Shown one piece after another: positions 4,497 to 19,235 of a DNA stretch of 64,000 nucleotides (positions are counted from its first letter, which is position 1; each line of letters begins with the position of its first letter). The notes under the pieces were generated by a model. It worked only from the letters and a program-made list of their open reading frames with translations. It was not told the DNA's origin and searched no databases. The stretch is from Anaerolineaceae bacterium (lineage in GTDB: Bacteria; Chloroflexota; Anaerolineae; Anaerolineales; Anaerolineaceae), in contig JAGPFF010000002.1 of the NCBI GenBank assembly GCA_018056725.1, positions 1 through 64,000 of the forward strand. Reading direction: 5' to 3'. The translations under genes were made by a program, and so were the position numbers.

Positions 4497-5841
4497 GGGC
4501 AGCCTCCTTCAGAGCATCAACGAAATCTTCAATTTCTTGTTTTGAAAGCATTTCGGTGACAGCAACCAGCATATGGTTCTTAAGGGATGGGTTGACCATC
4601 CCAAGATCATAGCCACCCAGGAAACCCATCTCGAGCAAATGTTCATTGAGATGTCCCACATCCATTGGACAGCGCACCACAAATTCATGGAAGAAGGGGG
4701 TATCAGAAAGCGCCGTAAAACCAGGGAGATTGTTTATCATTGTTGCTGCATAATGAGCTTTCTGGTAGCAAAGATTGGCGACCTGCTTCATTCCCTGTTT
4801 TCCCAGCAGGCTCATATAAACTGTCGCTGCCAGCGCCATCAAACCCTGGTTGGTACAAATATTGGAGGTTGCCTTTTCACGGCGGATATGTTGCTCGCGG
4901 GCGGTGAGCGTTAAGACGTAACCACGCCGACCTTCCACATCGGTTGTTTCGCCAACGAGACGACCTGAGATCTTGCGTACAAATTCCTTCCGGGTTGCCA
5001 GGAAACCCAGGTAGGGACCGCCATACGAGAGAGGAATCCCTAAAGGCTGTCCTTCGCCGACCACAATATCAGCACCCATTTCACCAGGTGTCTTAAGAAT
5101 CCCAAGTGCGGTGGGGTTAACCACCATGGCAATCAACGAACCTGCTTGATGGGCCTTTTGTATCAGGTTCTGAAAGTCGAAGAGACGACCGAAGAAATCA
5201 GGATATTGCACCAAAACGAGAGCTGTCTGATCATCGATCAGATCTGCCAGTTCGTCTGGATCTTCCATACATCCTTTTGCCCCTTCATGCGTAACCAACT
5301 CCAAATTCTCATACCCGCAAAGGTAGGAACACATTACTTCGCGATATTGAGGATTGACGGCTGAAGAGAGAAGGATTTTTCTCCTCTTCCCTCTGAAGTG
5401 ATGGTATGCCATAATGCCCGCTTCAGCTGCCGCGGTTGCACCATCGTAATGCGAAGCGTTGCTGACATCCATCCCTGTGAGATTGGCGACCAGGGTTTGA
5501 AATTCAAAAATTGACTGCAAGGTGCCCTGAGATACTTCAGGTTGATATGGCGTGTAAGCGGTATAAAACTCGCCCCGGCTAATGATGGCATTAACGGCGG
5601 CAGGAATATAATGCCGATAGGCTCCGGCACCTAAAAAGCAAGCGAGATGGTCGGTGGCTTCATTGGCTTCAGCAAATTCCTGCATTTCAGCCAGAATTTC
5701 CATTTCTGTCATTACCTTTGGCAGTTTTAGATCTGGAAAACGAAAGCGCTCGGGAACATCAGTGAAGAGATCTTTAATCTCCTTAACACCAATGACCTTG
5801 AGCATTTCTTTGGTTTCAGCCTCGGTATGAGGAATAAACAT
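4489..5841 (-). CDS. gcvPA: Glycine dehydrogenase (decarboxylating), subunit 1
   Basis: N-terminal half of the two-subunit P-protein of the glycine cleavage system. The 450-residue product begins MFIPHTEAETKEML and contains the segments typical of subunit 1, including FLGAGAYRHYIPAAV, TAYTPYQPEVSQGTLQ and the SYGGPYLGFLATR region. The start codon overlaps the gcvH stop by one base (TAATG), and the 3' end overlaps gcvPB by 8 bases, an arrangement that fits assembly of an alpha2beta2 enzyme. No frame interruption is seen. Confidence 0.97.
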   Translation of the reverse strand: MFIPHTEAETKEMLKVIGVKEIKDLFTDVPERFRFPDLKLPKVMTEMEILAEMQEFAEANEATDHLACFLGAGAYRHYIPAAVNAIISRGEFYTAYTPYQPEVSQGTLQSIFEFQTLVANLTGMDVSNASHYDGATAAAEAGIMAYHHFRGKRRKILLSSAVNPQYREVMCSYLCGYENLELVTHEGAKGCMEDPDELADLIDDQTALVLVQYPDFFGRLFDFQNLIQKAHQAGSLIAMVVNPTALGILKTPGEMGADIVVGEGQPLGIPLSYGGPYLGFLATRKEFVRKISGRLVGETTDVEGRRGYVLTLTAREQHIRREKATSNICTNQGLMALAATVYMSLLGKQGMKQVANLCYQKAHYAATMINNLPGFTALSDTPFFHEFVVRCPMDVGHLNEHLLEMGFLGGYDLGMVNPSLKNHMLVAVTEMLSKQEIEDFVDALKEAAHD

Positions 5842-6233
5842 TAGTGACCTCGAGTCTCACAAAAAGCCGCATAAGCATCCGCATCCATCAGAGCGTCCAC
5901 TTCAGCCGGATCGGTGAGCTCCACCTTGAGCATCCAGGCAGCACCAAATGGATCGGAATTGATCAGCTCAGGTTTATCGGCGAGGTCTTCATTGATTTCG
6001 ATCACTTTACCGGATACGGGAAGTTTCACATCGGCTGCTGCCTTGACGGATTCAATGGTTGCGACGATGGTATTTTTTTCAACCTGATCTCCGACATCCA
6101 CAGTAACCTCAAAAAAGACAATATCGGAAAGTTGCCCCTGGGCATAGTCGGTCACACCGAGAGTGGCGATATTCTTTTCCACTTTCAGCCATTCATCCGT
6201 ACTCGCGTATTTCAATTCTTTTGGTGTATTCAT
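5841..6233 (-). CDS. gcvH: Glycine cleavage system H protein
   Basis: Lipoyl carrier that shuttles the aminomethyl group between the P, T and L proteins. The 130-residue product has the lipoyl-attachment lysine K64 in ATIESVKAAADV, within the expected beta-hairpin, and the conserved GVTDYAQGQLSDIVF stretch. The ATG is preceded by a strong GGAGGAT site. It is the first gene of a three-gene leftward operon; the 114-base gap to the upstream MFS gene could hold a promoter (TACAAT on the minus strand at 6281-6286), though no good -35 is visible. No gcvT lies beside it. Confidence 0.97.
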   Translation of the reverse strand: MNTPKELKYASTDEWLKVEKNIATLGVTDYAQGQLSDIVFFEVTVDVGDQVEKNTIVATIESVKAAADVKLPVSGKVIEINEDLADKPELINSDPFGAAWMLKVELTDPAEVDALMDADAYAAFCETRGH

Positions 6234-6347
6234 TGATCCTCCGAGTGGTAATAAATTTGAACAACCCCTTCAGCACTACAATTGTACCGGTTATTTAAGG
6301 AACTCTTGCCTATCCTTCTTTGATTCTACGAAGCCGCGGATAAAAAG

Positions 6348-7631
6348 TCAAGAATGGTCATCCGCTGGAGCGGTTTTTTTCAGGGTGAAAAAGGTGGAAC
6401 CGCCAACAAGGAAAGCGATAAAACCGGAGAAACGCATGATTGCCGCTCCAATTAAACCCGCTTGAATCGAAATCGTATCAGTAAGCAATGTGCCGATCAT
6501 TGGTGAAAATATTGCCGCCATGTACTGCATCATTTGTGCCACCGAAACAAAAATGGCACTGTACTCAACCGGAACGTTCTTCATCAATTCATCAAAGAAG
6601 ACGAGATCCAATCCAGCCTGGAAAATTCCCGCAAATCCGGCAAAGATGGCAATTTGCCAGGGGACAGTTGTGAAGGTGAGCAATAAAGGATAAAACGAAA
6701 TACCCAATGTTGTCCACAGTAAAACAGCCTTCGATCCCTGCTTGCGGGAGATTCTCGTCCAGAGGAAATAGCCAATAAAAAGGATGGCTGTTTGAGACAT
6801 GGTAATGATTGAGATCCAACTATCCGTGGCGTGCACAGTGCGCACGAGATAGATCGGCACAAGAGGAGCGGACATTTGCAATCCACTCATCACCAGCAGT
6901 CTTTTCCCCATGAAGCTCAGAAAGGGCTTTTCTTTCTTTACCAGAGCGATCATATCTTTCATATCCGCGCGCCAACCGCGGGAGTAATTCAAGGGTGGTG
7001 GTGCGGTTGGAGTTAACACGATATGCGAGGAGTAGTAATAACTAAGCAAGCCACCCAACGATAGTCCAATAAACATCAACTGATAATTTAACGGAAAGAT
7101 TACCCGATCCAACATTTGACCTAAAGCCAGTACCGCAATCGTGGTGGTGAGCCCCATCGTAGACCAGCGGCGAGACATGAGTTCAAATCGGCGATCCGGA
7201 CCGGCGACTGCGTTCATCACCACGGAGAAAGTGATCGAGACAAGGGTTTGTGGAACTGTGGCGATTGCCCAAATGGTCAATATGGAATTGACGAGAATTT
7301 TATCGGGAAGAATAAAAGAGATGACACCGGTAATGGCATAGGAAGCGATAACGAGCAAACGGGCGATACTAAACCATTTGATAATATTCGATTGTCGCTG
7401 CAGGAAACGACCCAGAGGAATCGCCAGAATCAAGCCAGTAATTGCCGGCATGGAGGAAAGCAGCCCGATCTGAAACGTGGAGGCGTTCAGGTAAGTCAGA
7501 AATACCGGAAGGAAAGGACTAATGGCATTGGCAAGACCAACACCGATGGCGTCAATCTGCACATAGCGGAAGTTCTTTTGATCTTGATTATCTACAAGAA
7601 TTGATCTAGAGTGAGCGGTTTTGTTTTCCAA
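6348..7631 (-). CDS. MFS transporter
   Basis: A 427-residue integral membrane protein with about 12 hydrophobic segments, in two halves separated by a charged loop near residues 210-225 (RGWRADMKDMIALVKKEK). This is the Major Facilitator layout; the substrate cannot be read from sequence. The only start codon in the upstream part of the frame is a TTG at 7631, without a Shine-Dalgarno. A minus-strand TATAAT (7662-7667) lies about 30 bases upstream, and a second box, TAGAAT, ends six bases before the TTG, so a leaderless message is possible. It precedes gcvH in the same direction with a 114-base gap. Confidence 0.8.
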   Translation of the reverse strand: MENKTAHSRSILVDNQDQKNFRYVQIDAIGVGLANAISPFLPVFLTYLNASTFQIGLLSSMPAITGLILAIPLGRFLQRQSNIIKWFSIARLLVIASYAITGVISFILPDKILVNSILTIWAIATVPQTLVSITFSVVMNAVAGPDRRFELMSRRWSTMGLTTTIAVLALGQMLDRVIFPLNYQLMFIGLSLGGLLSYYYSSHIVLTPTAPPPLNYSRGWRADMKDMIALVKKEKPFLSFMGKRLLVMSGLQMSAPLVPIYLVRTVHATDSWISIITMSQTAILFIGYFLWTRISRKQGSKAVLLWTTLGISFYPLLLTFTTVPWQIAIFAGFAGIFQAGLDLVFFDELMKNVPVEYSAIFVSVAQMMQYMAAIFSPMIGTLLTDTISIQAGLIGAAIMRFSGFIAFLVGGSTFFTLKKTAPADDHS

Positions 7632-7718
7632 TTCTAAATTCTATTTGCTGGTCTTTCCTGCATTATACCAATGGCTTTATTATGTGATAGCAAAAAGGGG
7701 AAGCAAAAATTCATGAGG

Positions 7719-7724
7719 TATAAT
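7719..7724 (+). promoter_or_regulatory. Putative -10 element for glmS
   Basis: A perfect TATAAT lies about 50 bases before the predicted cleavage site of the glmS ribozyme, the expected place for the promoter of a leader that contains the whole ribozyme. No convincing -35 hexamer is visible 16-18 bases upstream. Confidence 0.45.
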
Positions 7725-7775
7725 TTTGGTACAAAAGGAGTATGGTTCTACTTGTAATGATTATGAAATAGAGTA

Positions 7776-7925
7776 GCGCATGGACCGGCAATATTGCCAG
7801 GTTGACGAGGATGAGGGTTCTTTACCGCGAGGTAAAGTTAACCGGGAAGACCGGGAAAATCGAAAGATCAGCGGATGCCCTCCAGGATTGAATCCTGCTA
7901 TTTCCAACAAGCAGACAATACACTC
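7776..7925 (+). ncRNA. glmS ribozyme (glucosamine-6-phosphate-activated)
   Basis: The glmS leader contains the hallmark segments in order: AGCGC around the cleavage point (predicted between A7775 and G7776), a hairpin around GGCAATATTGCC (7788-7799), the highly conserved GTTGACGAGG (7801-7810), a CTTTAC/GGTAAAG hairpin, AGCGGATGCCCTCCAGG near 7870-7886, a CAGGAT/ATCCTG hairpin, and ACAAGCAGACAATACACT (about 7908-7925), matching the conserved 3' core. Known family members self-cleave with GlcN6P as cofactor and so lower glmS expression. The boundaries are approximate; identity rests on conserved blocks plus position directly before glmS. Confidence 0.92.
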
Positions 7926-7932
7926 CTTTTGA

Positions 7933-7953
7933 ACAGAGATGGATTCTCTCTGT
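7933..7953 (+). other. Small hairpin between ribozyme and glmS start
   Basis: A perfect 7-bp inverted repeat (ACAGAGA at 7933-7939, TCTCTGT at 7947-7953) lies 20 bases before the glmS Shine-Dalgarno. It is followed by AATTTTATG rather than a U-tract, so it is not a convincing terminator. It might fold in the cleaved mRNA; role unknown. Confidence 0.4.
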
Positions 7954-7982
7954 AATTTTATGTTTACAATTTGGAGGAAGGC

Positions 7983-9824
7983 ATGTGTGGAATTGTCGGC
8001 TATATTGGAGAAAGAAACGCAACTCCCATCATACTAAACGGTCTCAAGAAGCTTGAATATCGCGGCTACGATTCAGCGGGTATCGCTGTGCTGACGAATG
8101 GAAGAATCGAAGTCCGCCGAAACGCCGGGAAATTAAGCAATTTGGAAGGTAATCTTCTCTCAGACCCCGTTGCCGGCACAATTGGCATCGGTCACACGCG
8201 TTGGGCGACCCATGGTGAACCCTCCGCCCGTAATGCACATCCGCACCTTTCGAGCAGTGGTGAGGTTGTGGTGGTACACAATGGAATTGTTGAGAATTTC
8301 ATTGAACTCAAAGAGGAGCTACAAGCGGAGGGGGTAAAGTTCCAATCAGATACGGATACCGAGACCATTGTCCATCTTGTGGACAAGTATTTTTCGGTAA
8401 CCAATGATCTTGAAAAAGCGGTACGCAAGGCGCTCGAGCAGCTCAAAGGGGCGCATGGCATCGTCATTTTTTCTTCTCGCGAACCGGATAAGATCATAGC
8501 CGCCCGCATCGGAAACGCTGGCGGGGTGGTCATCGGGCTGGGAAACGGTGAAAATTACATTGCCTCAGATATTCCAGCGATTCTGGAGCACACCCGCCGG
8601 CTGGTATTTCTGGAATCACGCCAGATGGCAGTGGTAACACGGGATGGGATAAGAATATCCTCTCTTGAAGGAATTCCAGTCAAAGTGCAAACTTCAACGG
8701 TTGCATGGGATCCTGTATCGGCAGAAAAAGGTGAATACCGGCATTTCATGCAAAAAGAGATTCATGAACAGGTACGGTCACTCACCGACACATTAGCCGG
8801 GCGTGTAAATTTTGCTGAGGGCACCATCCGTCTACCAGAGCTGAACCTGAGCGTTGAAAAAGCCAGGGCGATCAAAAAGATCGTTCTCACAGCCTGTGGC
8901 ACGGCTTCTCACGCTGGAATGGTTGGGCGGATGCTGATTGAAAGAATTGCCAGAATCCCCGCTACCATGGAAATTGCTTCAGAATTTCGGTATTCTGAAC
9001 CCATTGTGGATGCGAATACAGCCATTATCGCCATCAGCCAATCAGGCGAAACTGCAGATACGCTGGCTGCGATGGAAGAGGGGCGAAAAAAAGGCGCGAC
9101 AACCTGGTCAATCGTTAATGCCATTGGGTCACAGGCAATGCGCGTGGCGGATGGATTCATTTCTATGCAGACAGGTCCGGAAATTGGCGTGGCGTCTACC
9201 AAGGCTTTTACTGCACCTCTGGTTGATCTTTATATGCTGGCTGTTTTGTTGGCGGATATGCGTGGAACTTTGTCCGTAGAAGAACGCAAACATCTTGTGG
9301 AAGATTTGCGCTTGGTGCCGGAATTAGCAGGGCGCTGCCTCGATCGCGAAAATGAAGTAGAACAAGTGGCTGAATTATTAAAAGAAAGCCGCGACATGTT
9401 ATACCTGGGTCGGGGAATCAATATGCCGATCGCGTACGAAGGAGCATTGAAACTCAAAGAAATATCCTATATGCACGCCGAAGCCTACCCCGCAGGCGAG
9501 ATGAAACATGGACCGATCGCGTTAATTGATAAAGATATGCCCGTTCTGGCAATTGCCACCCGCGATCCCTGGTACGAAAAAATGATCTCGCAAATTGAGC
9601 AGGCGAAAGCGCGTGGTGGAGTAGTAATAGCAGTGGCTACGGAAGGGGATGAGCGGGTAAGGGAACTGGTAGACCGGGTGCTTTGGGTACCAGAATGCCC
9701 CTGGATGCTCAGTCCTGTGATTACTTCCATCCCCCTGCAAATATTAGCTTATCAGATCGCTACCATGCGCGGTTTGGATGTGGATCAGCCACGAAACCTG
9801 GCGAAATCCGTAACTGTGGAATAA
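7983..9824 (+). CDS. glmS: Glutamine--fructose-6-phosphate aminotransferase (isomerizing)
   Basis: Makes glucosamine-6-phosphate, the first committed step to UDP-GlcNAc for peptidoglycan. The frame opens at 7971, but the ATG at 7983, eight bases after GGAGG, gives MCGIVGYIGERN and places Cys2 as the N-terminal nucleophile of the glutaminase domain after Met removal, so 7983 is the start. The 613 residues comprise an N-terminal Ntn glutamine amidotransferase domain (about 1-240) and two SIS isomerase domains (with ISQSGETADT and the C-terminal PRNLAKSVTVE). Expression should be feedback-controlled by the ribozyme in its leader. Transcription ends at a hairpin lying in the next, convergent gene. 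Confidence 0.98.
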   Translation: MCGIVGYIGERNATPIILNGLKKLEYRGYDSAGIAVLTNGRIEVRRNAGKLSNLEGNLLSDPVAGTIGIGHTRWATHGEPSARNAHPHLSSSGEVVVVHNGIVENFIELKEELQAEGVKFQSDTDTETIVHLVDKYFSVTNDLEKAVRKALEQLKGAHGIVIFSSREPDKIIAARIGNAGGVVIGLGNGENYIASDIPAILEHTRRLVFLESRQMAVVTRDGIRISSLEGIPVKVQTSTVAWDPVSAEKGEYRHFMQKEIHEQVRSLTDTLAGRVNFAEGTIRLPELNLSVEKARAIKKIVLTACGTASHAGMVGRMLIERIARIPATMEIASEFRYSEPIVDANTAIIAISQSGETADTLAAMEEGRKKGATTWSIVNAIGSQAMRVADGFISMQTGPEIGVASTKAFTAPLVDLYMLAVLLADMRGTLSVEERKHLVEDLRLVPELAGRCLDRENEVEQVAELLKESRDMLYLGRGINMPIAYEGALKLKEISYMHAEAYPAGEMKHGPIALIDKDMPVLAIATRDPWYEKMISQIEQAKARGGVVIAVATEGDERVRELVDRVLWVPECPWMLSPVITSIPLQILAYQIATMRGLDVDQPRNLAKSVTVE

Positions 9825-9847
9825 CCCCTTCCTGCCATTGGCATGGA

Positions 9848-10402
9848 TCAGGCAATTCGCTCTTCAATCCGCATGATCATGGATTGAAGAGTTTTTTGTA
9901 CCAGGTTTTCACCAGGCAAAAGTTGAGTTAATGGTTCTTTTACGAATGAAATTTTTGGACCGGTTCTGCTTGCATGCCAGATCATGGTGAAACCAAATCT
10001 GGATAATTCCTGGGTTAATCTGTTCAGCAGGATCGCTGGAGAAAGGCATTCCTCCTTCCAGGCAGGACATTGTTGCAAAAGAGCATTTGCCAGCCTTTGG
10101 GGGAATTCGTTTGAGATTTGCTTTCTTTGATCCAAATTGGAAAGTTGTTCATGCAGAAGAGCAATAATCAATTGGGCTGTTTGCGGTGAAATTGGTCGGA
10201 CCAGAGAATACCGGCGGGCAGGTCTACCAGCACCGTTCTGGTAGGTACTCAGGCACACCTGCACCTGTTCGGTGTTCCGCAATTGCTGCATGTGATAATG
10301 AATATCTGCTTTGGAAAGAAAAAGCGCATGGCTGATTTGTTCGACCGTTGCGGATTCATGATTCTCGAGGTAATTAAGAATTTTTTCCGTGGTAGTTTTC
10401 AT
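9848..10402 (-). CDS. Winged-helix transcriptional regulator (SufR/ArsR-like)
   Basis: The 184-residue product begins with a winged-helix domain (about 1-75: ILNYLENHESATVEQISHAL, then KADIHYHMQQL as recognition region, and the wing motif GAGRPARRYSL) typical of the SufR/DeoR-like group. The C-terminal half resembles the effector part of that group (FGFTMIWHASRTGPKISF) but lacks the clustered cysteines that hold Fe-S in SufR. It lies divergent to nuoB; a minus-strand TATAAT at 10441-10446 abuts the nuo -35 box, so the regulator probably influences both itself and the nuo genes (inference). No Shine-Dalgarno is visible. Its last codons encode the glmS terminator on the other strand. Confidence 0.75.
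   Translation of the reverse strand: MKTTTEKILNYLENHESATVEQISHALFLSKADIHYHMQQLRNTEQVQVCLSTYQNGAGRPARRYSLVRPISPQTAQLIIALLHEQLSNLDQRKQISNEFPQRLANALLQQCPAWKEECLSPAILLNRLTQELSRFGFTMIWHASRTGPKISFVKEPLTQLLPGENLVQKTLQSMIMRIEERIA
9860..9897 (+). terminator. glmS terminator embedded in the convergent regulator gene
   Basis: A perfect 11-bp stem (9860-9870 with 9881-9891, CTCTTCAATCC/GGATTGAAGAG) with a 10-base loop is followed by TTTTTT. It is 36 bases after the glmS stop, yet inside the last 15 or so codons of the leftward winged-helix gene. The T-run exists only on the + strand, so it acts on glmS transcripts. Confidence 0.88.
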
Positions 10403-10440
10403 AGAAAACCGAATTAATTAATCAAAATAAATTTAGACTA

Positions 10441-10477
10441 ATTATAGACTTGACACCTGAAAAAGCAAAGATAAAAT
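10441..10477. promoter_or_regulatory. Overlapping divergent promoters (nuoB and regulator)
   Basis: On the + strand TTGACA (10450-10455) and TAAAAT (10472-10477) are 16 bases apart, giving a start near 10484 and a roughly 24-base leader for nuoB. On the minus strand TATAAT (10441-10446 read in reverse) would give a 30-base leader for the regulator gene. The two promoters overlap, so the two polymerases or one bound regulator would interfere. Confidence 0.75.
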
Positions 10478-10507
10478 GAAAATGAATCCCATAACCGAGA
10501 GGTAAAT

Positions 10508-11170
10508 ATGGACGAAAAACAGGATCTTAACAATTCAGGGTATGAAATTCCTGAAGAACTGCGTCATCAGGTAACCATTACCACGTTGGAAAAAATCTAT
10601 AACTGGGGACGTAGCAATTCCATGTGGCCAATGATGTTTGGTCTGGCATGTTGTGCGATCGAAATGATTTGCACTGCCGCAAGCCGGTATGACTTTTCCC
10701 GGTTTGGGATGGAAGTGATGCGTCCCAGTCCCCGCCAGGCGGATGTGATGATTGTTGCCGGTACGGTAACGAAAAAAATGCTTCCACAGATTGTCCGTTT
10801 ATACAATCAAATGTCGCTGCCCAAGTACGTGGTGGCGATGGGTGCCTGTGCCAGTGGCGGAGGTCCTTTCAAAGAGGGATATTCTGTTGTACCCGGAATT
10901 GATACTTATATTCCGGTGGACGTTTACATTACCGGCTGTCCGCCAACACCACAATCCTTAATTAATGGTCTTAATGCATTACAAAAAAAGGTAATGAATG
11001 AAAAAATGAGCGAGAGCGGCTGGTACGCCAAAGAACCTGCCAAGGAAGTACCCATCCCTGTCCTGGGTCCTGATGTGTTTGATCCACGAAAGAGCGATCT
11101 TATTTTCGCCGAGACTCACAAGCCGGCAGAGACCGGTGATGAAACTGGGGAAGAAGGAGAACCAAAATGA
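10508..11170 (+). CDS. nuoB: NADH-quinone oxidoreductase subunit B
   Basis: Carries the N2 [4Fe-4S] cluster of complex I next to the quinone site. The 220-residue product has the four expected cysteines: C48 and C49 in the FGLACCAIEM motif, C114 in MGACASGGGPF and C144 in TGCPPTPQSL. The C-terminal about 60 residues after GWYAKEP are an acidic tail longer than in many homologues. The ATG at 10508 follows GAGAGGT and a clear promoter. Its end overlaps the nuoCD start by four bases. Membrane subunits and the NADH module are not in this window. Confidence 0.96.
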   Translation: MDEKQDLNNSGYEIPEELRHQVTITTLEKIYNWGRSNSMWPMMFGLACCAIEMICTAASRYDFSRFGMEVMRPSPRQADVMIVAGTVTKKMLPQIVRLYNQMSLPKYVVAMGACASGGGPFKEGYSVVPGIDTYIPVDVYITGCPPTPQSLINGLNALQKKVMNEKMSESGWYAKEPAKEVPIPVLGPDVFDPRKSDLIFAETHKPAETGDETGEEGEPK

Positions 11171-12930
11171 GCGATTCCTCCATTCAGATAGAGCCATCCT
11201 CTGCCGATTCAACTTACAACGACTTAATCGCCCAATTTCCCGGACTAATTGAGATGGAAACACGCCCGGGTTTTACCGGTGTGGTTGTCAGCACTGTGGC
11301 AATCAGGAAGGTGATGCTCTATTTAAAAGAACAATGCGGATTTGATTACCTGACCTCCCTTACTGCGGTGGATGATTTTCCAGAAGACAAGATAGAAATA
11401 ATCTACCATTTGTATAAGACCACAGGCAGTCCGATAATTGAACTGAAAATATTCACTACGAGAGAGTCACCAGTTGTTCCGAGTGTCATGCCTGTCTACC
11501 CTGGAGCTGATTTCCAGGAGCGCGAAGTTTGGGACCTTTTCGGTGTCCATTTTGAAGGTCATCCGGATTTACGGCGGCTGTTACTGTGGGAGGGATTTGC
11601 CGGTCATCCACTGCGAAAGGACTGGAAAGAACCTCTCTTTGAAGAGGATGTAAAACCTTTCAAAAGCCGTTGGCCAGAAGGTAAAGGAATTCATCGGGAG
11701 TCGTTGAATCCCTTCAACGATAATGTTCAGTACCCAAAAGAATTTGATCCAAACGGCTTTACTCCGGACAATGATGAGAGCGTTTACAAAATCCTCCAAT
11801 CCAAGATTCCAGCTGGTTCGGATGATCTGAAAGTTGAACATATGATTGTCAATCTGGGACCACAGCATCCATCCACTCATGGCGTTTTTCGTATGGCTGC
11901 CTTGCTGGAAGGCGAGAAAGTACTGGCATTGAAACCAGTCATCGGATACATGCATCGAAACCACGAAAAAATTGGTGAACGCAATACCTGGCTGCAAAAT
12001 ATGCCATACACTGACCGCCTGGACTACCTTTCGTCCATGAGCAATAATTTTGGATATGCTCTTGCCGTTGAAAAACTGTTGGGAATCCAACCCCCGGAGC
12101 GAGCGGAATTTCTGCGGGTGATGATGGCGGAACTGACCCGAATTGCCTCGCATGCCATGGCGATCGGTTTCCTTCTCAACGATCTTGGCGCCTTCTTCAC
12201 CCCTTCACTTTATGCGCTGGAAGAACGTGAGTTGATCCTGGATATTTTCGAATCTGTTGCCGGTTCACGTATGATGTGCAACTACTTCCGGTTTGGCGGC
12301 GTGGTACGGGATATTACAGAAGCTGATTTTAAGCAGATAAAGAAATTAGTGGAAGACCGGCTGCCGCGAAAAATTGACGATATTGATCTCTATCTGACCG
12401 AAAACGAAATTGTGCAGGCACGTTGTGAAGGGGTGGGAGTTTTGACCGCCGAGGAAGCGATCGCATTCTCGGAAAGTGGTCCGATGTTGCGAGCTTCGGG
12501 TGTGCCGTATGATATTCGTAAAGCTGACCCGTATAGCATTTATGATCAGCTTGAGTTTGATGTCTGTTACCGGCAACATGGCGATGTCTACGACCGTTAC
12601 CTGGTCCGGCTGGATGAAATCCGACAAAGTATACGAATATTGCAGCAAGTGATCAAGTATATGCCACAGGGTCCAATTCAGACAGGTAAAGTTCAATATG
12701 CGGTAAGAGTGCCGGCTGGTGAAGCTTACGGTCGGGTGGAAGGACCGCGCGGCGAGCTTGGATTTTATGTTGTCTCAGATGGAAAAGCCAATCCTAAACG
12801 TTATCATGTGCGGGCGCCATCCTTAATGAATTGTACTGGACTGGAAAAAATGTGTGTTGGTGGAAAAATCGCGGATGCAGTTACGATCCTGGGCGCGGTG
12901 GATGTCGTCCTTGGCGAAGTGGATCGATAG
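11167..12930 (+). CDS. nuoCD: NADH-quinone oxidoreductase subunits C and D, fused
   Basis: A 587-residue fusion of the hydrophilic complex I subunits that form the quinone-reducing module with NuoB. Residues about 15-190 are NuoC (with EREVWDLFGVHFEGHPDLRR). A linker leads to NuoD from about 215 (NLGPQHPSTHGVFRM, then MHRNHEKIGERNTWLQNMPY, ending ILGAVDVVLGEVDR). The CxxC pairs that bind Ni in related hydrogenase large subunits are absent, so this is a true NuoD rather than a hydrogenase subunit. Translation is coupled to nuoB by an ATGA overlap. C-D fusion is known in several phyla. Confidence 0.95.
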   Translation: MSDSSIQIEPSSADSTYNDLIAQFPGLIEMETRPGFTGVVVSTVAIRKVMLYLKEQCGFDYLTSLTAVDDFPEDKIEIIYHLYKTTGSPIIELKIFTTRESPVVPSVMPVYPGADFQEREVWDLFGVHFEGHPDLRRLLLWEGFAGHPLRKDWKEPLFEEDVKPFKSRWPEGKGIHRESLNPFNDNVQYPKEFDPNGFTPDNDESVYKILQSKIPAGSDDLKVEHMIVNLGPQHPSTHGVFRMAALLEGEKVLALKPVIGYMHRNHEKIGERNTWLQNMPYTDRLDYLSSMSNNFGYALAVEKLLGIQPPERAEFLRVMMAELTRIASHAMAIGFLLNDLGAFFTPSLYALEERELILDIFESVAGSRMMCNYFRFGGVVRDITEADFKQIKKLVEDRLPRKIDDIDLYLTENEIVQARCEGVGVLTAEEAIAFSESGPMLRASGVPYDIRKADPYSIYDQLEFDVCYRQHGDVYDRYLVRLDEIRQSIRILQQVIKYMPQGPIQTGKVQYAVRVPAGEAYGRVEGPRGELGFYVVSDGKANPKRYHVRAPSLMNCTGLEKMCVGGKIADAVTILGAVDVVLGEVDR

Positions 12931-12942
12931 GATGGAGGAAAA

Positions 12943-13515
12943 ATGAACGGCAAGGGTTTACTTAAAGGCTTGGGACTTACTTTCAGACACTTTTTCGCCA
13001 CTTATCTTGTGGATCTCTTCGATAAAAATGCCAAGAAACGCCGGGGAACGATTGACGCAGATGGACTCTTCACTGTTCAATTTCCTGAAGAATCCCTGGT
13101 CATCCCAGAAGAATTTCGGGTGATCCCTTTCCTGATCTATACATTGGATGAAAATAATCAGCGTAAGTACCGTTGCACTGCCTGTGGGATTTGCTCCAAA
13201 GTATGCCCGACGCAATGCATTTGGATTACCCGAAAAAAGGACCCGGAAACTGGAAAACCGGTTACGGAATCGGAAGAATTTTATATTGACATCGACAAAT
13301 GCATGAATTGCGGCTCCTGTGCTGAATTTTGCCCCTTCGATGCGATTAAAATGGATCATAATTTCAAAATTGCCACCTATGTACGCGGTGAGACCCATAT
13401 TCTTCCGAAAGAAAAACTGGGAAGACCACTGGAATATTATGCTAAAATTCGTCCGAATAATTATGCTGCAGAAGAAGCGGAACGAGCTGCCAAAGCGCAA
13501 CCGGCTCAAGTTTAA
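12943..13515 (+). CDS. nuoI: NADH-quinone oxidoreductase subunit I (2x[4Fe-4S])
   Basis: Electron-wire subunit of complex I. The 190-residue product holds two classic 4Fe-4S motifs: C78-x2-C81-x2-C84-x3-C88P and C120-x2-C123-x2-C126-x3-C130P. The N-terminus (LLKGLGLTFRHFFATYLVDLF) matches the amphipathic helix of NuoI. It starts 12 bases after nuoCD behind GGAGG. The C-terminal tail is Ala/Glu-rich and varies in the family. The nuoA and nuoH-N genes are not next to it. Confidence 0.92.
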   Translation: MNGKGLLKGLGLTFRHFFATYLVDLFDKNAKKRRGTIDADGLFTVQFPEESLVIPEEFRVIPFLIYTLDENNQRKYRCTACGICSKVCPTQCIWITRKKDPETGKPVTESEEFYIDIDKCMNCGSCAEFCPFDAIKMDHNFKIATYVRGETHILPKEKLGRPLEYYAKIRPNNYAAEEAERAAKAQPAQV

Positions 13516-13520
13516 CCAAG

Positions 13521-13850
13521 ATGAACGACGACACCGAAATTCTCTTTCCTTTTCGTGTAATCCCTTCGTTGAGAAGTTTGCGTGGAGAACCCTGGAAGAA
13601 CCTGATTGATCACCTTTGCCTGCCTGATGTGGATGAAGGAGACCGGGTCGGTTTTAGCCTGATGATGGTGCGTTTGGGGGGGTGTGGGGGATGCAATGCG
13701 GATTCATTTCGGGCAATGAGGGGATGTACCCATTGTGCCAGGCTAACGATCCGTCGGTTTAAGAATAGTGACCAGGAATTATTGGAGCTATTCAAGGAAG
13801 CCCGGTTAGAGGCGGCTGAATATCTGGAGCGTTATAAAGAAACGATCTAA
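13521..13850 (+). CDS. Small four-cysteine protein linked to nuo genes
   Basis: A 109-residue protein that I do not recognise. It begins five bases after nuoI and so is very likely cotranscribed. Its centre has C55-x2-C58-x10-C69-x2-C72 in GGCGGCN...RGCTHC, the spacing of a zinc ribbon or Fe-S site; a lone C33 lies upstream. After it comes a basic segment (ARLTIRRFK) and a C-terminal Glu/Lys-rich helix (about 84-109). There is no signal peptide or membrane segment. Position suggests a role in maturation of, or as an accessory subunit to, the NuoB-CD-I module; this is inference only. Confidence 0.75.
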   Translation: MNDDTEILFPFRVIPSLRSLRGEPWKNLIDHLCLPDVDEGDRVGFSLMMVRLGGCGGCNADSFRAMRGCTHCARLTIRRFKNSDQELLELFKEARLEAAEYLERYKETI

Positions 13851-13907
13851 ACAGATCCCATTTTGTCAGGTTGACTGACCCTGGCAGGAGAAATAAAGGA
13901 AACCTTA

Positions 13908-14831
13908 ATGACCGAAAATGGTTCAATAATGAAGATTGTGGGCGTTCGATTTTCAAAAGTGGGAAAAATATATAATTTCGATGCCTCACAGGTGGAGAAT
14001 ATTCAAAAAGGGGACGTAGTAGTTGTTGAAACCAGCCGCGGATGGCAGCTTGGCGAGGTAATTGTCCTGAGCACTGCAACTCCTCAGGATGCCAAAACAA
14101 ACAGCTGGAAAACAATCGATCGATTGGCTACTCCAAAAGATCTCATGCTGCGACAATCCTGGCAGAACCAGGAACCAGAAGTGGTGGAAAAATGCAAGGA
14201 ACGGGCTGCTGAATTGCATTTGAGCCATATCAAAATTGTTGCCAGCGAGTACAGCTTTGATGGCTCCCGGTTAACCATCCTTTTTAGCAGTGACATTGAA
14301 GAAAAAGTGGAACTCAAATCCTTAAGAACGGATATGCAAAAATTATTTGCCCCTGCGCAGGTGGAAATGCGTCAGATTGGACCGCGTGACGTTGCGAAGA
14401 TTATGGGTGGTTTGGGAGCATGTGGTCTGGAATGCCGATGTTGCACTCGCTTCATCACTGAGTTCAGCTCTATTTCCATCAAAATGGCAAAGGAACAAGG
14501 CATTTCACTTACTCCAACAGAGATTACCGGGATGTGTGGACGCCTGCGCTGCTGCTTGATCTATGAATACGAAAACTATGTGGATGCGCGCAAGGTGCTC
14601 CCCAAGAAAAATCGGCGCGTGCTTACACCTGACGGGGAAGGGAAAGTTGTTGATGTGCAGCCTCTAAACGCTGTAATCATCGTGGAAATACCCGAGCGTG
14701 GCAAACGCGAATACCATAAAGATGATATCAAGCTGCTTGATGAGCCAGAAAACATGCCTAAAAGTTCCAATCCGGCGGGTGGAAAACAAGGTGGTGGGGG
14801 AGGTTGCGGTCAATGTCGCTGGAGACAATAA
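13908..14831 (+). CDS. ricT: PSP1 / RicT (YaaT)-like protein
   Basis: Cytoplasmic PSP1-domain protein. In Bacillus RicT with RicA and RicF forms an Fe-S-containing complex that affects RNase Y-dependent mRNA maturation. The 307-residue product has the conserved Cys set C172, C176, C178, C179 (ACGLECRCCTRF) and C210, C215, C216 (MCGRLRCCLIYEYE). It also has an unusual Gly-rich C-terminus with one more CxxC (C300, C303). The ATG at 13908 is preceded by AAGGAAA. It lies 57 bases after the four-cysteine gene and directly abuts the PIG-L gene (TAA then ATG). Partners RicA/RicF are not in the window. Confidence 0.9.
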   Translation: MTENGSIMKIVGVRFSKVGKIYNFDASQVENIQKGDVVVVETSRGWQLGEVIVLSTATPQDAKTNSWKTIDRLATPKDLMLRQSWQNQEPEVVEKCKERAAELHLSHIKIVASEYSFDGSRLTILFSSDIEEKVELKSLRTDMQKLFAPAQVEMRQIGPRDVAKIMGGLGACGLECRCCTRFITEFSSISIKMAKEQGISLTPTEITGMCGRLRCCLIYEYENYVDARKVLPKKNRRVLTPDGEGKVVDVQPLNAVIIVEIPERGKREYHKDDIKLLDEPENMPKSSNPAGGKQGGGGGCGQCRWRQ

Positions 14832-15560
14832 ATGTCATTTGACGAAGGATGGTTGCAAAAGAAAAAAATCCTTGTCGTCCTGGCTCACCCGGATGACCCG
14901 GATTTTTTTTGCGGAGCGATGATTGCCCGGTGGTGCGCAAAGGGGCATGAGGTTTCATATTGTTTGCTCACAAGAGGGCAACGCGGTTCTCAGAATTCCA
15001 AAAATGATCCACTTGAACTCGGCATCATCCGTCAGCAAGAACAGACGAATGCTGCGAAAATTCTTGGCGTCAGCTCCATTCATTTTCTGAATCATATGGA
15101 TGGCGAATTGGTTTCGAATCTAGGGTTAAGGAACGAAATTATTGCCGAGATCCGCAAACTGAAACCTGATATTGTGGTATCTTGTGATCCCACCAATCTG
15201 TTTCCTTCTGAAAACCGGATAAATCATCCTGATCACCGCGCAGCTGGTCAGGCTGTTCTCGATGCGGTATTTCCTGCTGCCGGGAATCCGGCATATCCAC
15301 TCATGACGGAAGATGGCATGCTCGAAGCGCATGCGCTAGAGGAAGTATGGTTAAGTCTGACGCAGCAGCCCAACACCAAAGTGGAATTAAGTGATTTTCT
15401 TGAACCAAAGATCTCGGCAATTTTGGCTCATTCCTCACAGACAAATATGAGCCGTGAGAGTTTACGGGAAAAATATCGCGACGGGTTTGAAATTAACTCT
15501 GAAACCAATTTGCCGGTTTATGTCGAAAAATTCCTGCGGATTCGATTAAATCCGAAATAA
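14832..15560 (+). CDS. PIG-L family deacetylase
   Basis: The 242-residue protein has the metal-binding AHPDD motif (H19-D22), a second HPDH motif, and the overall layout of LmbE/PIG-L N-acetylglucosaminyl deacetylases, which hydrolyse an N-acetyl group from a GlcNAc-type substrate using Zn. The substrate cannot be told: family members act in mycothiol and bacillithiol synthesis, lipid glycan synthesis and detoxification. It starts immediately after the ricT stop codon, suggesting coupled translation. No membrane segment or signal peptide. Confidence 0.88.
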   Translation: MSFDEGWLQKKKILVVLAHPDDPDFFCGAMIARWCAKGHEVSYCLLTRGQRGSQNSKNDPLELGIIRQQEQTNAAKILGVSSIHFLNHMDGELVSNLGLRNEIIAEIRKLKPDIVVSCDPTNLFPSENRINHPDHRAAGQAVLDAVFPAAGNPAYPLMTEDGMLEAHALEEVWLSLTQQPNTKVELSDFLEPKISAILAHSSQTNMSRESLREKYRDGFEINSETNLPVYVEKFLRIRLNPK

Positions 15561-15605
15561 TCCGATTAATCTGATTAAATAGCAAATAATTACTCCTTTT
15601 AAGGA

Positions 15606-15634
15606 TTGCCCCATTTTACAGACACTGTTATAAT
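15606..15634 (+). promoter_or_regulatory. Promoter of the GntR gene (extended -10)
   Basis: TTGCCC (15606-15611) and TATAAT (15629-15634) are separated by 17 bases, and the -10 is preceded by TG at 15626-15627, an extended -10. Initiation is expected near 15641, giving a leader of only about 24 bases. Confidence 0.75.
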
Positions 15635-15645
15635 AGAAATCATCA

Positions 15646-15662
15646 GAATAATCATATTATTC
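15646..15662. promoter_or_regulatory. Perfect palindrome before the GntR start codon
   Basis: GAATAAT (15646-15652), three bases, then ATTATTC (15656-15662) form a perfect 7-3-7 inverted repeat ending two bases before the ATG at 15665. It occupies the place where a Shine-Dalgarno would be. Size and position fit an operator for the GntR protein encoded next (autoregulation inferred). Confidence 0.6.
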
Positions 15663-15664
15663 AT

Positions 15665-16357
15665 ATGAGCGCTGAACCTTTCACTTTATCTGAATTCCTT
15701 CTATACCTTGCGGCAATCCCGCCTGAGGGAGATCAGCGAATTCCCCCGTTGAATGTCTTAAGTAAAGAATTGGGTTTGAGCGTTGCCACTCTCCGAGAGC
15801 AGTTAGAAGAGGCTCGATCGATGGGGTTAGTGGAAGTGAAACCCCGTGCAGGAATTCGAAAGTTACCTTTCGATTTTGCTGCTGCCATTCGTCCGGGTCT
15901 TCTTTATGCCGTACATTCTAAAAGCATCTTCTATCGTCAATTTTCTGACTTGAGAAAACACCTGGAAGCCGCTTATTTCATTGAGGCGGCTCAGTTATTG
16001 ACTCTTTCCGATGTCAATCAATTAACCGATCTGGTCAGTGAAGCCCAGAAAAAAATAAATTCCCTTCCTACTCAAAATCCTGCCACGGAACATCGGCAAT
16101 TTCATCTTTTGATTTACCGGAGACTGGAAAATGAGTATCTGCTTGGAGTACTAAGAGCATTTTGGGATATCTACCACATCAGTGGCATGGAAATCTACCC
16201 CGAAATTCATTACCTAGAGCGCGTCTGGTATTACCATGCCAGCATTGTAGACGAGATCCGGGCAAAAAATTTTTCTCAGGGTCTTGCAATTTTAATGGAG
16301 CATATGGACATGCTTTCTCAACGTGAAAAAAGCCTGCCCAAACTCAATTTTGAATAA
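15665..16357 (+). CDS. GntR family regulator with FCD domain
   Basis: The 230-residue product has an N-terminal winged helix (about 8-70: IPPLNVLSKELGLSVATLREQLEEARSMG as two pieces of the helix-turn-helix) and an all-helical FCD effector domain (about 95-225) with candidate metal-ligand histidines in EHRQFHLLIYRR and YYHASIVDEI. FCD regulators sense small organic acids. It lies 26 bases before korA, so it probably controls the 2-oxoacid:ferredoxin oxidoreductase genes as well as itself. There is no Shine-Dalgarno before the ATG. Confidence 0.87.
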   Translation: MSAEPFTLSEFLLYLAAIPPEGDQRIPPLNVLSKELGLSVATLREQLEEARSMGLVEVKPRAGIRKLPFDFAAAIRPGLLYAVHSKSIFYRQFSDLRKHLEAAYFIEAAQLLTLSDVNQLTDLVSEAQKKINSLPTQNPATEHRQFHLLIYRRLENEYLLGVLRAFWDIYHISGMEIYPEIHYLERVWYYHASIVDEIRAKNFSQGLAILMEHMDMLSQREKSLPKLNFE

Positions 16358-16383
16358 ATTTCCTTAATGGAGATAAAACTTTA

Positions 16384-18198
16384 ATGAACAATACAAAGAT
16401 GATCGAAAATGATTTTTGCATCACTTTTAGCACCATCAATGGTTCAGGAAGTGCAACCGCCAACATTACCCTAATGCGTACACTCTTCCGCATGGGCATA
16501 CCGGTTTCAGGCAAGAACATTTTTCCATCCAATATTCAGGGACAACCAACCTGGTTTACGCTCCGCTTAAGTAAGCAAGGCTATCTTGGACGAGTAAAAG
16601 AGGATGATATCGTTGTGGCGATGAATCCTGCCACTCTCGAAAAAGATATTTCCTGCCTTGTACCCGACGGAGTCATGCTTGTTCCGGATGATTTCACGCT
16701 TCCAACTGTAAGGGAAGATATCATTCTGTATAAAATGCCAGTTCGAAAGATCCTCAAAGAGGCAAATGTTGTTCCAGCTTTGCGTGAATATATTGCCAAT
16801 ATGGTGTATGTAGGTGTTTTGTGTTCAATATTAAAAATTGAAATCAATTTAATCCAGGAATCCTTAAATTACCATTTTAAAGGCAATGAAAAAGCCGTCG
16901 AAAGTAATTTCAGTGTAGTCAAGATGGCTTTTGATTGGGCGGAAGCGAATCTTCAAAAAATGGATCGCTACGTAACAGCCAAAATGAATGGCACAGAAGG
17001 GTATATCATGACGGATGGAAATACTGCCGCTGCCCTAGGCGCAATTTTTGGCGGTGTGCAATTTATTTCCTGGTATCCGATCACACCGGCTACCTCGCTG
17101 GCAGAAACACTTCATGAGTATCTGCCGCAGCTGCGCAAGGATCCTGAAACCGGTAAAGATACTTTTGCTATTGTTCAGGCTGAGGACGAACTGGCGGCGA
17201 TTGGGATGGTTATCGGCGCAGGGTGGGGCGGTTTGCGGGCGATGACCTCAACCTCTGGTCCTGGATTATCCTTGATGACCGAATATATTGGATTGGCTTA
17301 TTACGCCGAAGTTCCAGTTGTCGTTTGGGATGTTCAGCGGGTGGGTCCGAGTACAGGAATGCCTACCAGGACCTCTCAGGGTGATTTGACCATGGTGAAT
17401 TTTATGAGCCATGGTGATTCACAAATGCTCATCCTGATTCCGGGAACGATTCAGGAGTGCTTCGAGTTTGGCTGGCGCGCGTTTGATATTGCCGAGCGCT
17501 TTCAGACGCCCGTGATTGTCCTTTCTGATCTTGATTTTGGTATGAACCAGTGGATGACCAAGAAATTTGAATATCCTGACCAGCCAATAGATCGCGGAAA
17601 GATTCTTTGGGAAGAAGATCTGGAAAAACTGCTACAGCGTACAGGTGATAATTGGGGACGGTACCTCGATTTAGATGGGGACGGGATTCCATACCGGACT
17701 TTGCCAGGGAACCAGCACCCAAAGAGCGGGCATTTTGTCCGCGGAACCAGCCATGATGAGTACGCAAACTATACTGAAGATGGAGACGTCTGGCTGAGAA
17801 ACTTTGGCAGGATTAAGAAAAAAATTGATTTGGCGAGAGAATCTCTACCTGTGCCTGTGGTTGACACCATGGCTGACGCTGAAATCGGCATTATCGCCTC
17901 AGGATCCGTGGATTCAGCGGTTATCGAAGCCCGTGATCTCTTGCTGGAAGAAGGGAAAGCCACTGATTATCTGCGCATTCGCGGAATTCCATTCTCTGAA
18001 GAGGTAAAGAAGTTTATTGATCAACACAGAGTAACCTATGTGGTTGAAGTGAATCGAGATGGTCAGCTTTCACAGCTTCTGACCATGGATTTTCCGGAAG
18101 TCGCCTTCAAACTCAGGAAAGTAGCTCAAATGGATGGTTTGCCTTTGCCGGCAAAATGGATTGTGGATGAAATAAAGAGCTATGAGGAGAAAAAATAA
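16384..18198 (+). CDS. korA: 2-oxoacid:ferredoxin oxidoreductase, gamma-alpha fusion
   Basis: Oxidises a 2-oxoacid (2-oxoglutarate or pyruvate type) with CoA to acyl-CoA, reducing ferredoxin, together with KorB. The 604-residue product fuses an N-terminal gamma domain (about 1-195, with INGSGSATANITLMRTLF) to the alpha/pyrimidine-binding domain (from about 205, with WYPITPATSLAE, and TSTSGPGLSLMTEYIGLA), which is the KorA-type order. The insert GDNWGRYLDLDGDGIPYRT is typical of KorA-like proteins. The ATG is preceded by GGAGA. It overlaps korB by one base. Substrate specificity is not determined by sequence. Confidence 0.9.
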   Translation: MNNTKMIENDFCITFSTINGSGSATANITLMRTLFRMGIPVSGKNIFPSNIQGQPTWFTLRLSKQGYLGRVKEDDIVVAMNPATLEKDISCLVPDGVMLVPDDFTLPTVREDIILYKMPVRKILKEANVVPALREYIANMVYVGVLCSILKIEINLIQESLNYHFKGNEKAVESNFSVVKMAFDWAEANLQKMDRYVTAKMNGTEGYIMTDGNTAAALGAIFGGVQFISWYPITPATSLAETLHEYLPQLRKDPETGKDTFAIVQAEDELAAIGMVIGAGWGGLRAMTSTSGPGLSLMTEYIGLAYYAEVPVVVWDVQRVGPSTGMPTRTSQGDLTMVNFMSHGDSQMLILIPGTIQECFEFGWRAFDIAERFQTPVIVLSDLDFGMNQWMTKKFEYPDQPIDRGKILWEEDLEKLLQRTGDNWGRYLDLDGDGIPYRTLPGNQHPKSGHFVRGTSHDEYANYTEDGDVWLRNFGRIKKKIDLARESLPVPVVDTMADAEIGIIASGSVDSAVIEARDLLLEEGKATDYLRIRGIPFSEEVKKFIDQHRVTYVVEVNRDGQLSQLLTMDFPEVAFKLRKVAQMDGLPLPAKWIVDEIKSYEEKK

Positions 18199-19235
18199 TG
18201 GTTACTGCCCTAAATCAAACCACCAATTCTGTAGGTCTTACCCGAGCAGATTATCGAGGAGCTCCTTCCACCTTGTGTCAAGGATGTGGACATAATAGTA
18301 TCGCGGCTCAGATTACCGCAGCTTGCTTTGAAATGAATCTCATTCCTGAAAAGGTGGTGAAATTCAGCGGAATCGGCTGTTCCAGTAAAAGCCCCACCTA
18401 TTTTCTGAGCCGGTCCTTCGGTTTCAACGGGCTTCACGGAAGGATGCCATCCCTGGCGCTCGGCGCCATGTTTGCTGACAGGACGCTTGAAGGGATTGCG
18501 ATCAGCGGAGATGGCGACACTGCCAGTATTGGATTTGGACAATTCAAGCATCTCGTGCGGAGAAATTTGCCTCTTGTTTACATTATCGAAAATAACGGAG
18601 TGTATGGTCTGACCAAAGGTCAATTCTCTGCCACAGCAGAAAAAGGATTGCAACTGAAGCGGCAGGGAACGAATCCATTTCTACCGGTAGATCTGGCGAT
18701 GGAGGCACTGATTTCGAATGCCACCTTTGTTGCCAGGTCTTTCGCCGGAGACCCAAAGCAGGTAAAGGAACTGGTCAAGGCGGCGATCGCTCATCAGGGG
18801 ATTGCCGTGATCGATATCATCAGCCCATGCGTGACGTTTCACAACCATGAGAATTCTTTCCATTCATACTCCTTTGGAAAAACGCATGAAGAACCATTGC
18901 ATGAAATTTCGTTGGTATTAGCCCGTGATGAAATTACGGTTGAGGATTTCGAGCGTGGCACAATCAAAGAAGTGACCATGTTTGATGGCAGTACGGTGGT
19001 TTTGAAGAAACTGGAAAGTGATTATGACCCTACTGATAAATATCAGGCTCTAAACAAGTTGCAGGAAGCTGAAGAAAACAATTGGCTGCTGACCGGGCTA
19101 ATCTATATAAACCCAGAAGTGCCAACTCTTTTTGACACCTATAATATTCCGGATTCTCCAATGAACCGCCTGGGAGTTGAGAAACTTCGACCGGCTCCAG
19201 AGGCTCTCCAGCAACTCAACGATTCCATGTTCTAA
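18198..19235 (+). CDS. korB: 2-oxoacid:ferredoxin oxidoreductase, beta subunit
   Basis: Thiamine-diphosphate and Fe-S subunit. The 345-residue product has the cluster ligands C27 and C30 (CQGCGHNSI), C61 (GIGCSSK) and C211 (SPCVTF), as in the two-subunit oxidoreductases. TPP binding is seen in GDGDTASIGF (104-113) and ENNGVYGLTKGQ (131-142). Translation is coupled to korA through TAATG. With ferredoxin as the electron carrier this enzyme ties fermentation or amino-acid oxidation to the anaerobic redox pool. The gene ends 23 bases before the convergent GNAT-like gene. Confidence 0.93.
   Translation: MVTALNQTTNSVGLTRADYRGAPSTLCQGCGHNSIAAQITAACFEMNLIPEKVVKFSGIGCSSKSPTYFLSRSFGFNGLHGRMPSLALGAMFADRTLEGIAISGDGDTASIGFGQFKHLVRRNLPLVYIIENNGVYGLTKGQFSATAEKGLQLKRQGTNPFLPVDLAMEALISNATFVARSFAGDPKQVKELVKAAIAHQGIAVIDIISPCVTFHNHENSFHSYSFGKTHEEPLHEISLVLARDEITVEDFERGTIKEVTMFDGSTVVLKKLESDYDPTDKYQALNKLQEAEENNWLLTGLIYINPEVPTLFDTYNIPDSPMNRLGVEKLRPAPEALQQLNDSMF

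Follow-up and report, generated by a model that had tools for sequence, protein, structure and literature searches.

Two CX2C pairs joined by a spacer (CX2C-Xn-CX2C) form small modules that hold zinc or an Fe-S cluster, as in HypA. Another group of Cys-rich proteins, the 4Fe-4S ferredoxins, includes the complex I subunit NuoI and carries the motif CX2CX2CX3C. The CXXC of the carrier ATPase Mrp binds a bridging [4Fe-4S] cluster and is held to be essential in vivo (PMC6345978), and the related Ind1/NUBPL delivers [4Fe-4S] clusters to mitochondrial complex I (PMC7980591). In the present study, we analysed a stretch of 64,000 nucleotides of Anaerolineaceae DNA (the window), in which a four-Cys protein, given the working name X, is encoded directly after nuoI (positions 13521 to 13850, + strand). 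Like the CX2C-Xn-CX2C modules, X is small and has CXXC pairs about 10 residues apart, but it is unmatched in Pfam and NCBIfam and is predicted to consist of helices only, the models leaving the stretch that joins the pairs unresolved. X is Cys-rich like NuoI and is encoded side by side with it, whereas it has neither the ferredoxin motif nor a Fer4 match. With the Mrp/NBP35/ApbC/Ind1 (NUBPL) carriers X shares an adjacent gene and presumably a pathway, Ind1 being described as maturing complex I (PMC7980591); however, X is one third their size, lacks both the P-loop and the FeS_assembly_P domain, and has cysteines absent from its Mrp neighbour.

The original prediction described a 109-residue protein, starting five bases past nuoI, with cysteines C55, C58, C69 and C72, and this proved to be a real gene. 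Its ATG lies at 13521 and its stop codon ends at 13850, nuoI ending at 13515; it has relatives, and against three close ones pN was 0.22-0.26 and pS 0.86-1.01, showing purifying selection. X has one further cysteine, C33, besides those of the CX2C-X10-CX2C module (codons C55 to C72, positions 13683 to 13736, + strand), and an arginine-rich stretch lies C-terminal to the second CXXC. When the window protein was aligned with those of 102 hand-picked loci, C55, C58, G68, C69 and C72 were invariant (103/103), and the exact spacing was kept in all but one sequence (102/103; L147 has a spacer of 8). Conservation of the four cysteines among homologues had been set beforehand as a check on the prediction, and an invariant set of four Cys ligands, as expected of an Fe-S or zinc protein, was found in every aligned sequence. 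The invariance suggests that the four cysteines may serve as ligands of a metal, either zinc or an Fe-S cluster.

The statement that X matches no familiar family also held. Searched at E up to 10, the window protein had no match in Pfam or NCBIfam, a P-loop NTPase domain being likewise absent at that limit in Pfam, and 49 relatives gave only scattered weak matches, none of them shared by more than two members (best E 0.0078 and 0.037). No Fer4 profile in Pfam or NCBIfam matched the window protein or its relatives, and X was unmatched there by the rubredoxin, ferredoxin and thioredoxin families. This last result speaks against X being a small redox or thiol carrier that moves electrons or disulfides between Fe-S or 2-oxoacid enzymes (KorAB, lipoamide dehydrogenase, HdrD-like) and the quinone pool, an improbable role for which its two CXXC motifs and the presence of X paralogues beside lpd or HdrD-like genes can be cited. 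In a profile search, no credible relative of X was found among PDB chains; the top row, 9l08_A (a cytochrome c555 trimer, E 0.00047), contained no individual segment within the threshold and was discounted as a spurious product of weak, repeated matching. Structure prediction of the four-Cys module, proposed with the original prediction, gave a small, helical protein in AlphaFold2 (pLDDT 79.1, pTM 0.75; second target 70.4, 0.67), both runs drawing on one set of six sequences, headed by a different row in each, and both leaving residues 59-67, the loop between the Cys pairs, unresolved at pLDDT below 50. With this model from a six-sequence alignment, Foldseek found no PDB chain at E <= 0.001, and a second structure comparison reached a best Z of 3.4 for a model built from 6 sequences and poor at loop 59-67. 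Judged by titles and abstract openings, through which a sequence is not findable, no description of X or its gene cluster was recognised in the literature. The earlier suggestion is borne out in so far as X belongs to an undescribed family with an invariant four-Cys module.

This unclassified family is of class-wide reach. Of 61 near genomes, 44 carry X, as do 272 of the 396 examined from the class Anaerolineae (163 of the 233 of good quality) and at least 22 of 400 in a Chloroflexota sample, the range covered by the profile search outside Anaerolineae, with at most 11 candidates scored per genome; among the matches listed, all 22 were inside that class. A pattern scan of the contigs of 84,980 species, a one-protein query of low sensitivity, gave five X loci, all titled Chloroflexi or Anaerolineaceae, and no X was found on the plasmids searched. 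Annotation now leaves the family as 'hypothetical', and its recognition holds even if the role considered below fails.

In the window, all on the + strand, X is preceded by nuoB (10508 to 11170; Pfam PF01058, E 3.3e-27), by nuoCD for fused 30-kDa and 49-kDa subunits (11167 to 12930, overlapping nuoB by 4 bases; PF00329, PF00346), and by nuoI with two 4Fe-4S motifs (12943 to 13515; Pfam Fer4 families). After 57 bases (13851 to 13907) it is followed by a ricT-like (PSP1) gene (13908 to 14831, + strand; PF04468), a PIG-L gene, a gene that we take to be of GntR type, korA for the alpha subunit of a 2-oxoacid:ferredoxin oxidoreductase (16384 to 18198, + strand; PF01855/PF01558, syntenic in many relatives), and korB, an ORF named by position and sequence and supported by synteny (18198 to 19235, + strand). 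The cysteines of the window RicT (CX5CC-X30-CX4CC) resemble in spacing the Fe-S ligands CX4CC-X30-CX4CC given for Bacillus subtilis RicT (PMC6751060). By synteny, the 57-base gap is the site of mrp in most near relatives, whose usual order is nuoB-nuoCD-nuoI-X-mrp-ricT; mrp is absent here, and some relatives likewise have none after X. Searching the window genome for Mrp gave as best match a distant paralogue of 42% identity, and the nuo-linked orthologue seems to have been lost from this genome, which is 89% complete. That paralogue, the only strong Mrp match (G000, C1:24048-25034), has just one Cys where the CXXC would be.

The arrangement recurs across the class. We compared 102 loci, comprising 33 (L021-L053), 60 (L100-L159) and nine short ones, picked for family spread with other matches and duplicate fetches left out, so that their shares are not class-wide frequencies; flanks were about 5-6 kb (1.5 kb in the nine short loci), and some absences are contig or flank ends. 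A same-strand nuoI lay upstream of X in 52 of the 102 (fragmentary in L033) and a same-strand mrp, the commonest downstream neighbour, in 50; both were present in 42, nuoI only in 10, mrp only in 8 and neither in 42. Linkage to nuo extended over 20 of 34 numbered families and one unassigned contig, the nuoI-X-mrp order recurring in families far apart, and X stood beside mrp-ricT in seven loci without nuo. Together with neighbours that are often Fe-S-related (HdrD-like in nine loci, RicT, KorA), these counts suggest a part in Fe-S maturation, as does the setting of X, a four-Cys protein encoded after nuoI and ahead of an Mrp poor in cysteines, with a RicT that has Fe-S-like cysteines close by. 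We thus tentatively propose the following scenario. X may be a four-Cys metal or Fe-S accessory of Fe-S maturation that often serves complex I. It would work, most likely, with the Mrp/NUBPL-type carrier ATPase encoded beside it, and may assist the transfer of [4Fe-4S] clusters to Fe-S enzymes, or their stability there, with the NuoB/NuoI module as a frequent recipient. In the window genome, X would act alone or with the distant Mrp paralogue because the orthologous mrp is missing there, and paralogous branches may serve other proteins, for example an HdrD-like Fe-S protein. Among the roles first put forward, an assembly factor or metal-stabilised accessory fits better, since the gene most often found downstream encodes an Fe-S carrier of the Mrp/NUBPL type; an extra redox subunit gained no direct backing.

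The X-linked Mrp proteins match Pfam PF10609 ('NUBPL iron-transfer P-loop NTPase') and PF01883 ('Iron-sulfur cluster assembly protein'). The scored set consisted of L042:3881-4957 and 48 other X-linked mrp genes, that of L023, cut by the contig end, being unscored. Walker A (GKGGhGK[ST]) was found in 49/49, and CXXC was absent from 48/49, only L117 keeping it; the motif was lost in several ways, by LPDG-like replacement, by deletion with its loop or by an APDT-like change. CXXC was kept in 24 of 32 scored best Mrp matches from 34 loci of other Chloroflexota classes, orthology being assumed (15/20 in the first 20 loci, before 14 more were added); this difference, between rows that share ancestry in all such counts, suggests a link with the proposed maturation role. 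Against that role, CXXC is also gone from 8 of these 32, although X was not found there among the matches listed for the phylum sample. Within the class, CXXC was present in 0/9 X-less nuo-mrp loci (six before four more class Mrp were added), in 1/10 orthologues encoded away from X, and in 5 of 20 scored distant paralogues (of 21). Since the first two of these controls resemble the X-linked set, CXXC loss tracks the X-bearing class and not X locus by locus, and it occurs without X as well. A strict rule by which X replaces the CXXC of Mrp was rejected, given the nine X-less nuo-mrp loci without CXXC and the CXXC of L117. A looser form, in which the complex I-linked Mrp gave up its CXXC site and X provides four Cys in trans, appears unlikely, and we give equally little credence to the two-protein carrier that it implies, with the ATPase on Mrp and the cluster site on X; the nine X-less loci with the same loss tell against any necessity of X supplying cysteines to Mrp, and such X-less lineages would, if the split existed, need another partner. 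The question is raised of how a CXXC-less Mrp works, and whether the metal site lies on another protein.

Linkage to complex I, which the original prediction had called tight, is real as a repeated nuoB-nuoCD-nuoI synteny (52/102 loci, 20/34 families) but is not exclusive. With window-type nuoCD defined by E < 1e-200 and mrp orthologues by E < 1e-90, X and nuoCD occurred together in 34 of the 61 near genomes, X alone in 10, nuoCD alone in 7 and neither in 10; for X and mrp the numbers were 36, 8, 9 and 8. Both co-occurrences are weak (Fisher p 0.013 and 0.048, respectively; 61 genomes, kinship uncorrected), and this tells against the maturation role, as do X genes kept without nuoCD (10/44), without a linked mrp orthologue (8/44) or without either, G004 having X-ricT and neither of the two. 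In four of the 34 genomes with X and nuoCD, the sole X adjoins other genes. Conversely, six of the seven nuoCD-positive near genomes without X have nuoI followed directly by mrp, and in the seventh the contig ends in nuoI. Among 20 X-bearing class genomes picked for having no nuo beside X or a second X copy, nuoCD had no match in G610, G786 and G682 and just a distant one in G766, in genomes that are incomplete (83-95%); these four, which belong to families f22, f140 and f143, gave no window-type nuoCD. An accessory subunit would be expected only with complex I genes, and the check set on the original prediction, homologues without nuo linkage, came out partly against it, as 50/102 loci have no upstream nuoI and 10 of the 44 X-bearing near genomes no window-type nuoCD. 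Because X persists without nuo, has other neighbours elsewhere and is missing at some nuoI-mrp loci, its distribution excludes an obligatory complex I subunit, and a dedicated one was rejected on the same grounds. That X belongs stably to the peripheral arm as an accessory subunit is likewise hard to credit: its gene starts 5 bases past nuoI in the window and follows nuoI in 52 of 102 loci, yet it occurs in genomes without window-type nuoCD, and 7 of 41 near genomes have nuoB-nuoCD-nuoI but no X.

The nine X-less, CXXC-less nuoI-mrp loci and the 42 of 102 X loci with neither neighbour also weigh against the maturation role, and several X loci have no Fe-S neighbour at all, lying beside IF3, HD-domain or glycosidase-like genes. 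Such loci agree with X being a general zinc-stabilised housekeeping or regulatory protein of the class, outside Fe-S maturation, for which nuo, mrp and ricT would be mere operon companions; its presence in 272 of 396 genomes and the arginine-rich stretch past the second CXXC point the same way. However, the recurrence of nuoI-X-mrp in far-apart families and the adjoining Mrp without CXXC are not readily explained by a housekeeping function, which we regard as possible though somewhat doubtful. For the role in Fe-S maturation we estimate a probability of about 0.35, since the gene distribution rules X out as an obligatory complex I subunit and makes a strict partnership with Mrp less likely. 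If this role is correct, a whole bacterial class would build its Fe-S enzymes with an undescribed small protein and with an Mrp carrier that lacks a site held essential (PMC6345978).

In a tree of X with few columns and many forks open, the nuo/mrp-linked rows were separate from two further branches, one of 23 rows with HdrD-like, lpd, IF3 or other neighbours and one of 18 rows with HdrD-like, HD, glycosidase-like or other neighbours. X paralogues adjoin lpd or HdrD-like genes. The HdrD-like Fe-S protein gene lies downstream of X in L041, L044, L045, L047, L049, L106, L119, L138 and L139; the L139 copy carries CCG and Fer4 domains (Pfam), and in L047 it is followed by what looks, on visual reading, like a PDH E1 gene. 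Two further genes turn up in deeper families of the class: a metallo-beta-lactamase-fold gene, which separates nuoI from X in 11 loci, and an amine-oxidase-type FAD gene, which comes after X or between X and mrp in 15; the metallo-beta-lactamase-fold gene, X and the FAD gene recur in L114, L120, L125, L128-L130, L135, L140, L141, L149 and L150. Furthermore, complex I is split (L168 of G001, 4504-13623; L167 of G034, 7701-16453; window, 10508-13515): nuoB-nuoCD-nuoI are separate from an operon for the membrane arm (nuoH, K, L, two M-like, N), in which nuoA and J were also read in L168, several of the gene names being given from sequence. The NuoH and NuoL/M/N-like matches of the window genome lie on other contigs, C28 and C40, and both NuoF-type (PF01512) matches lie together at C79:26827-29687 of G000, away from the nuo unit.
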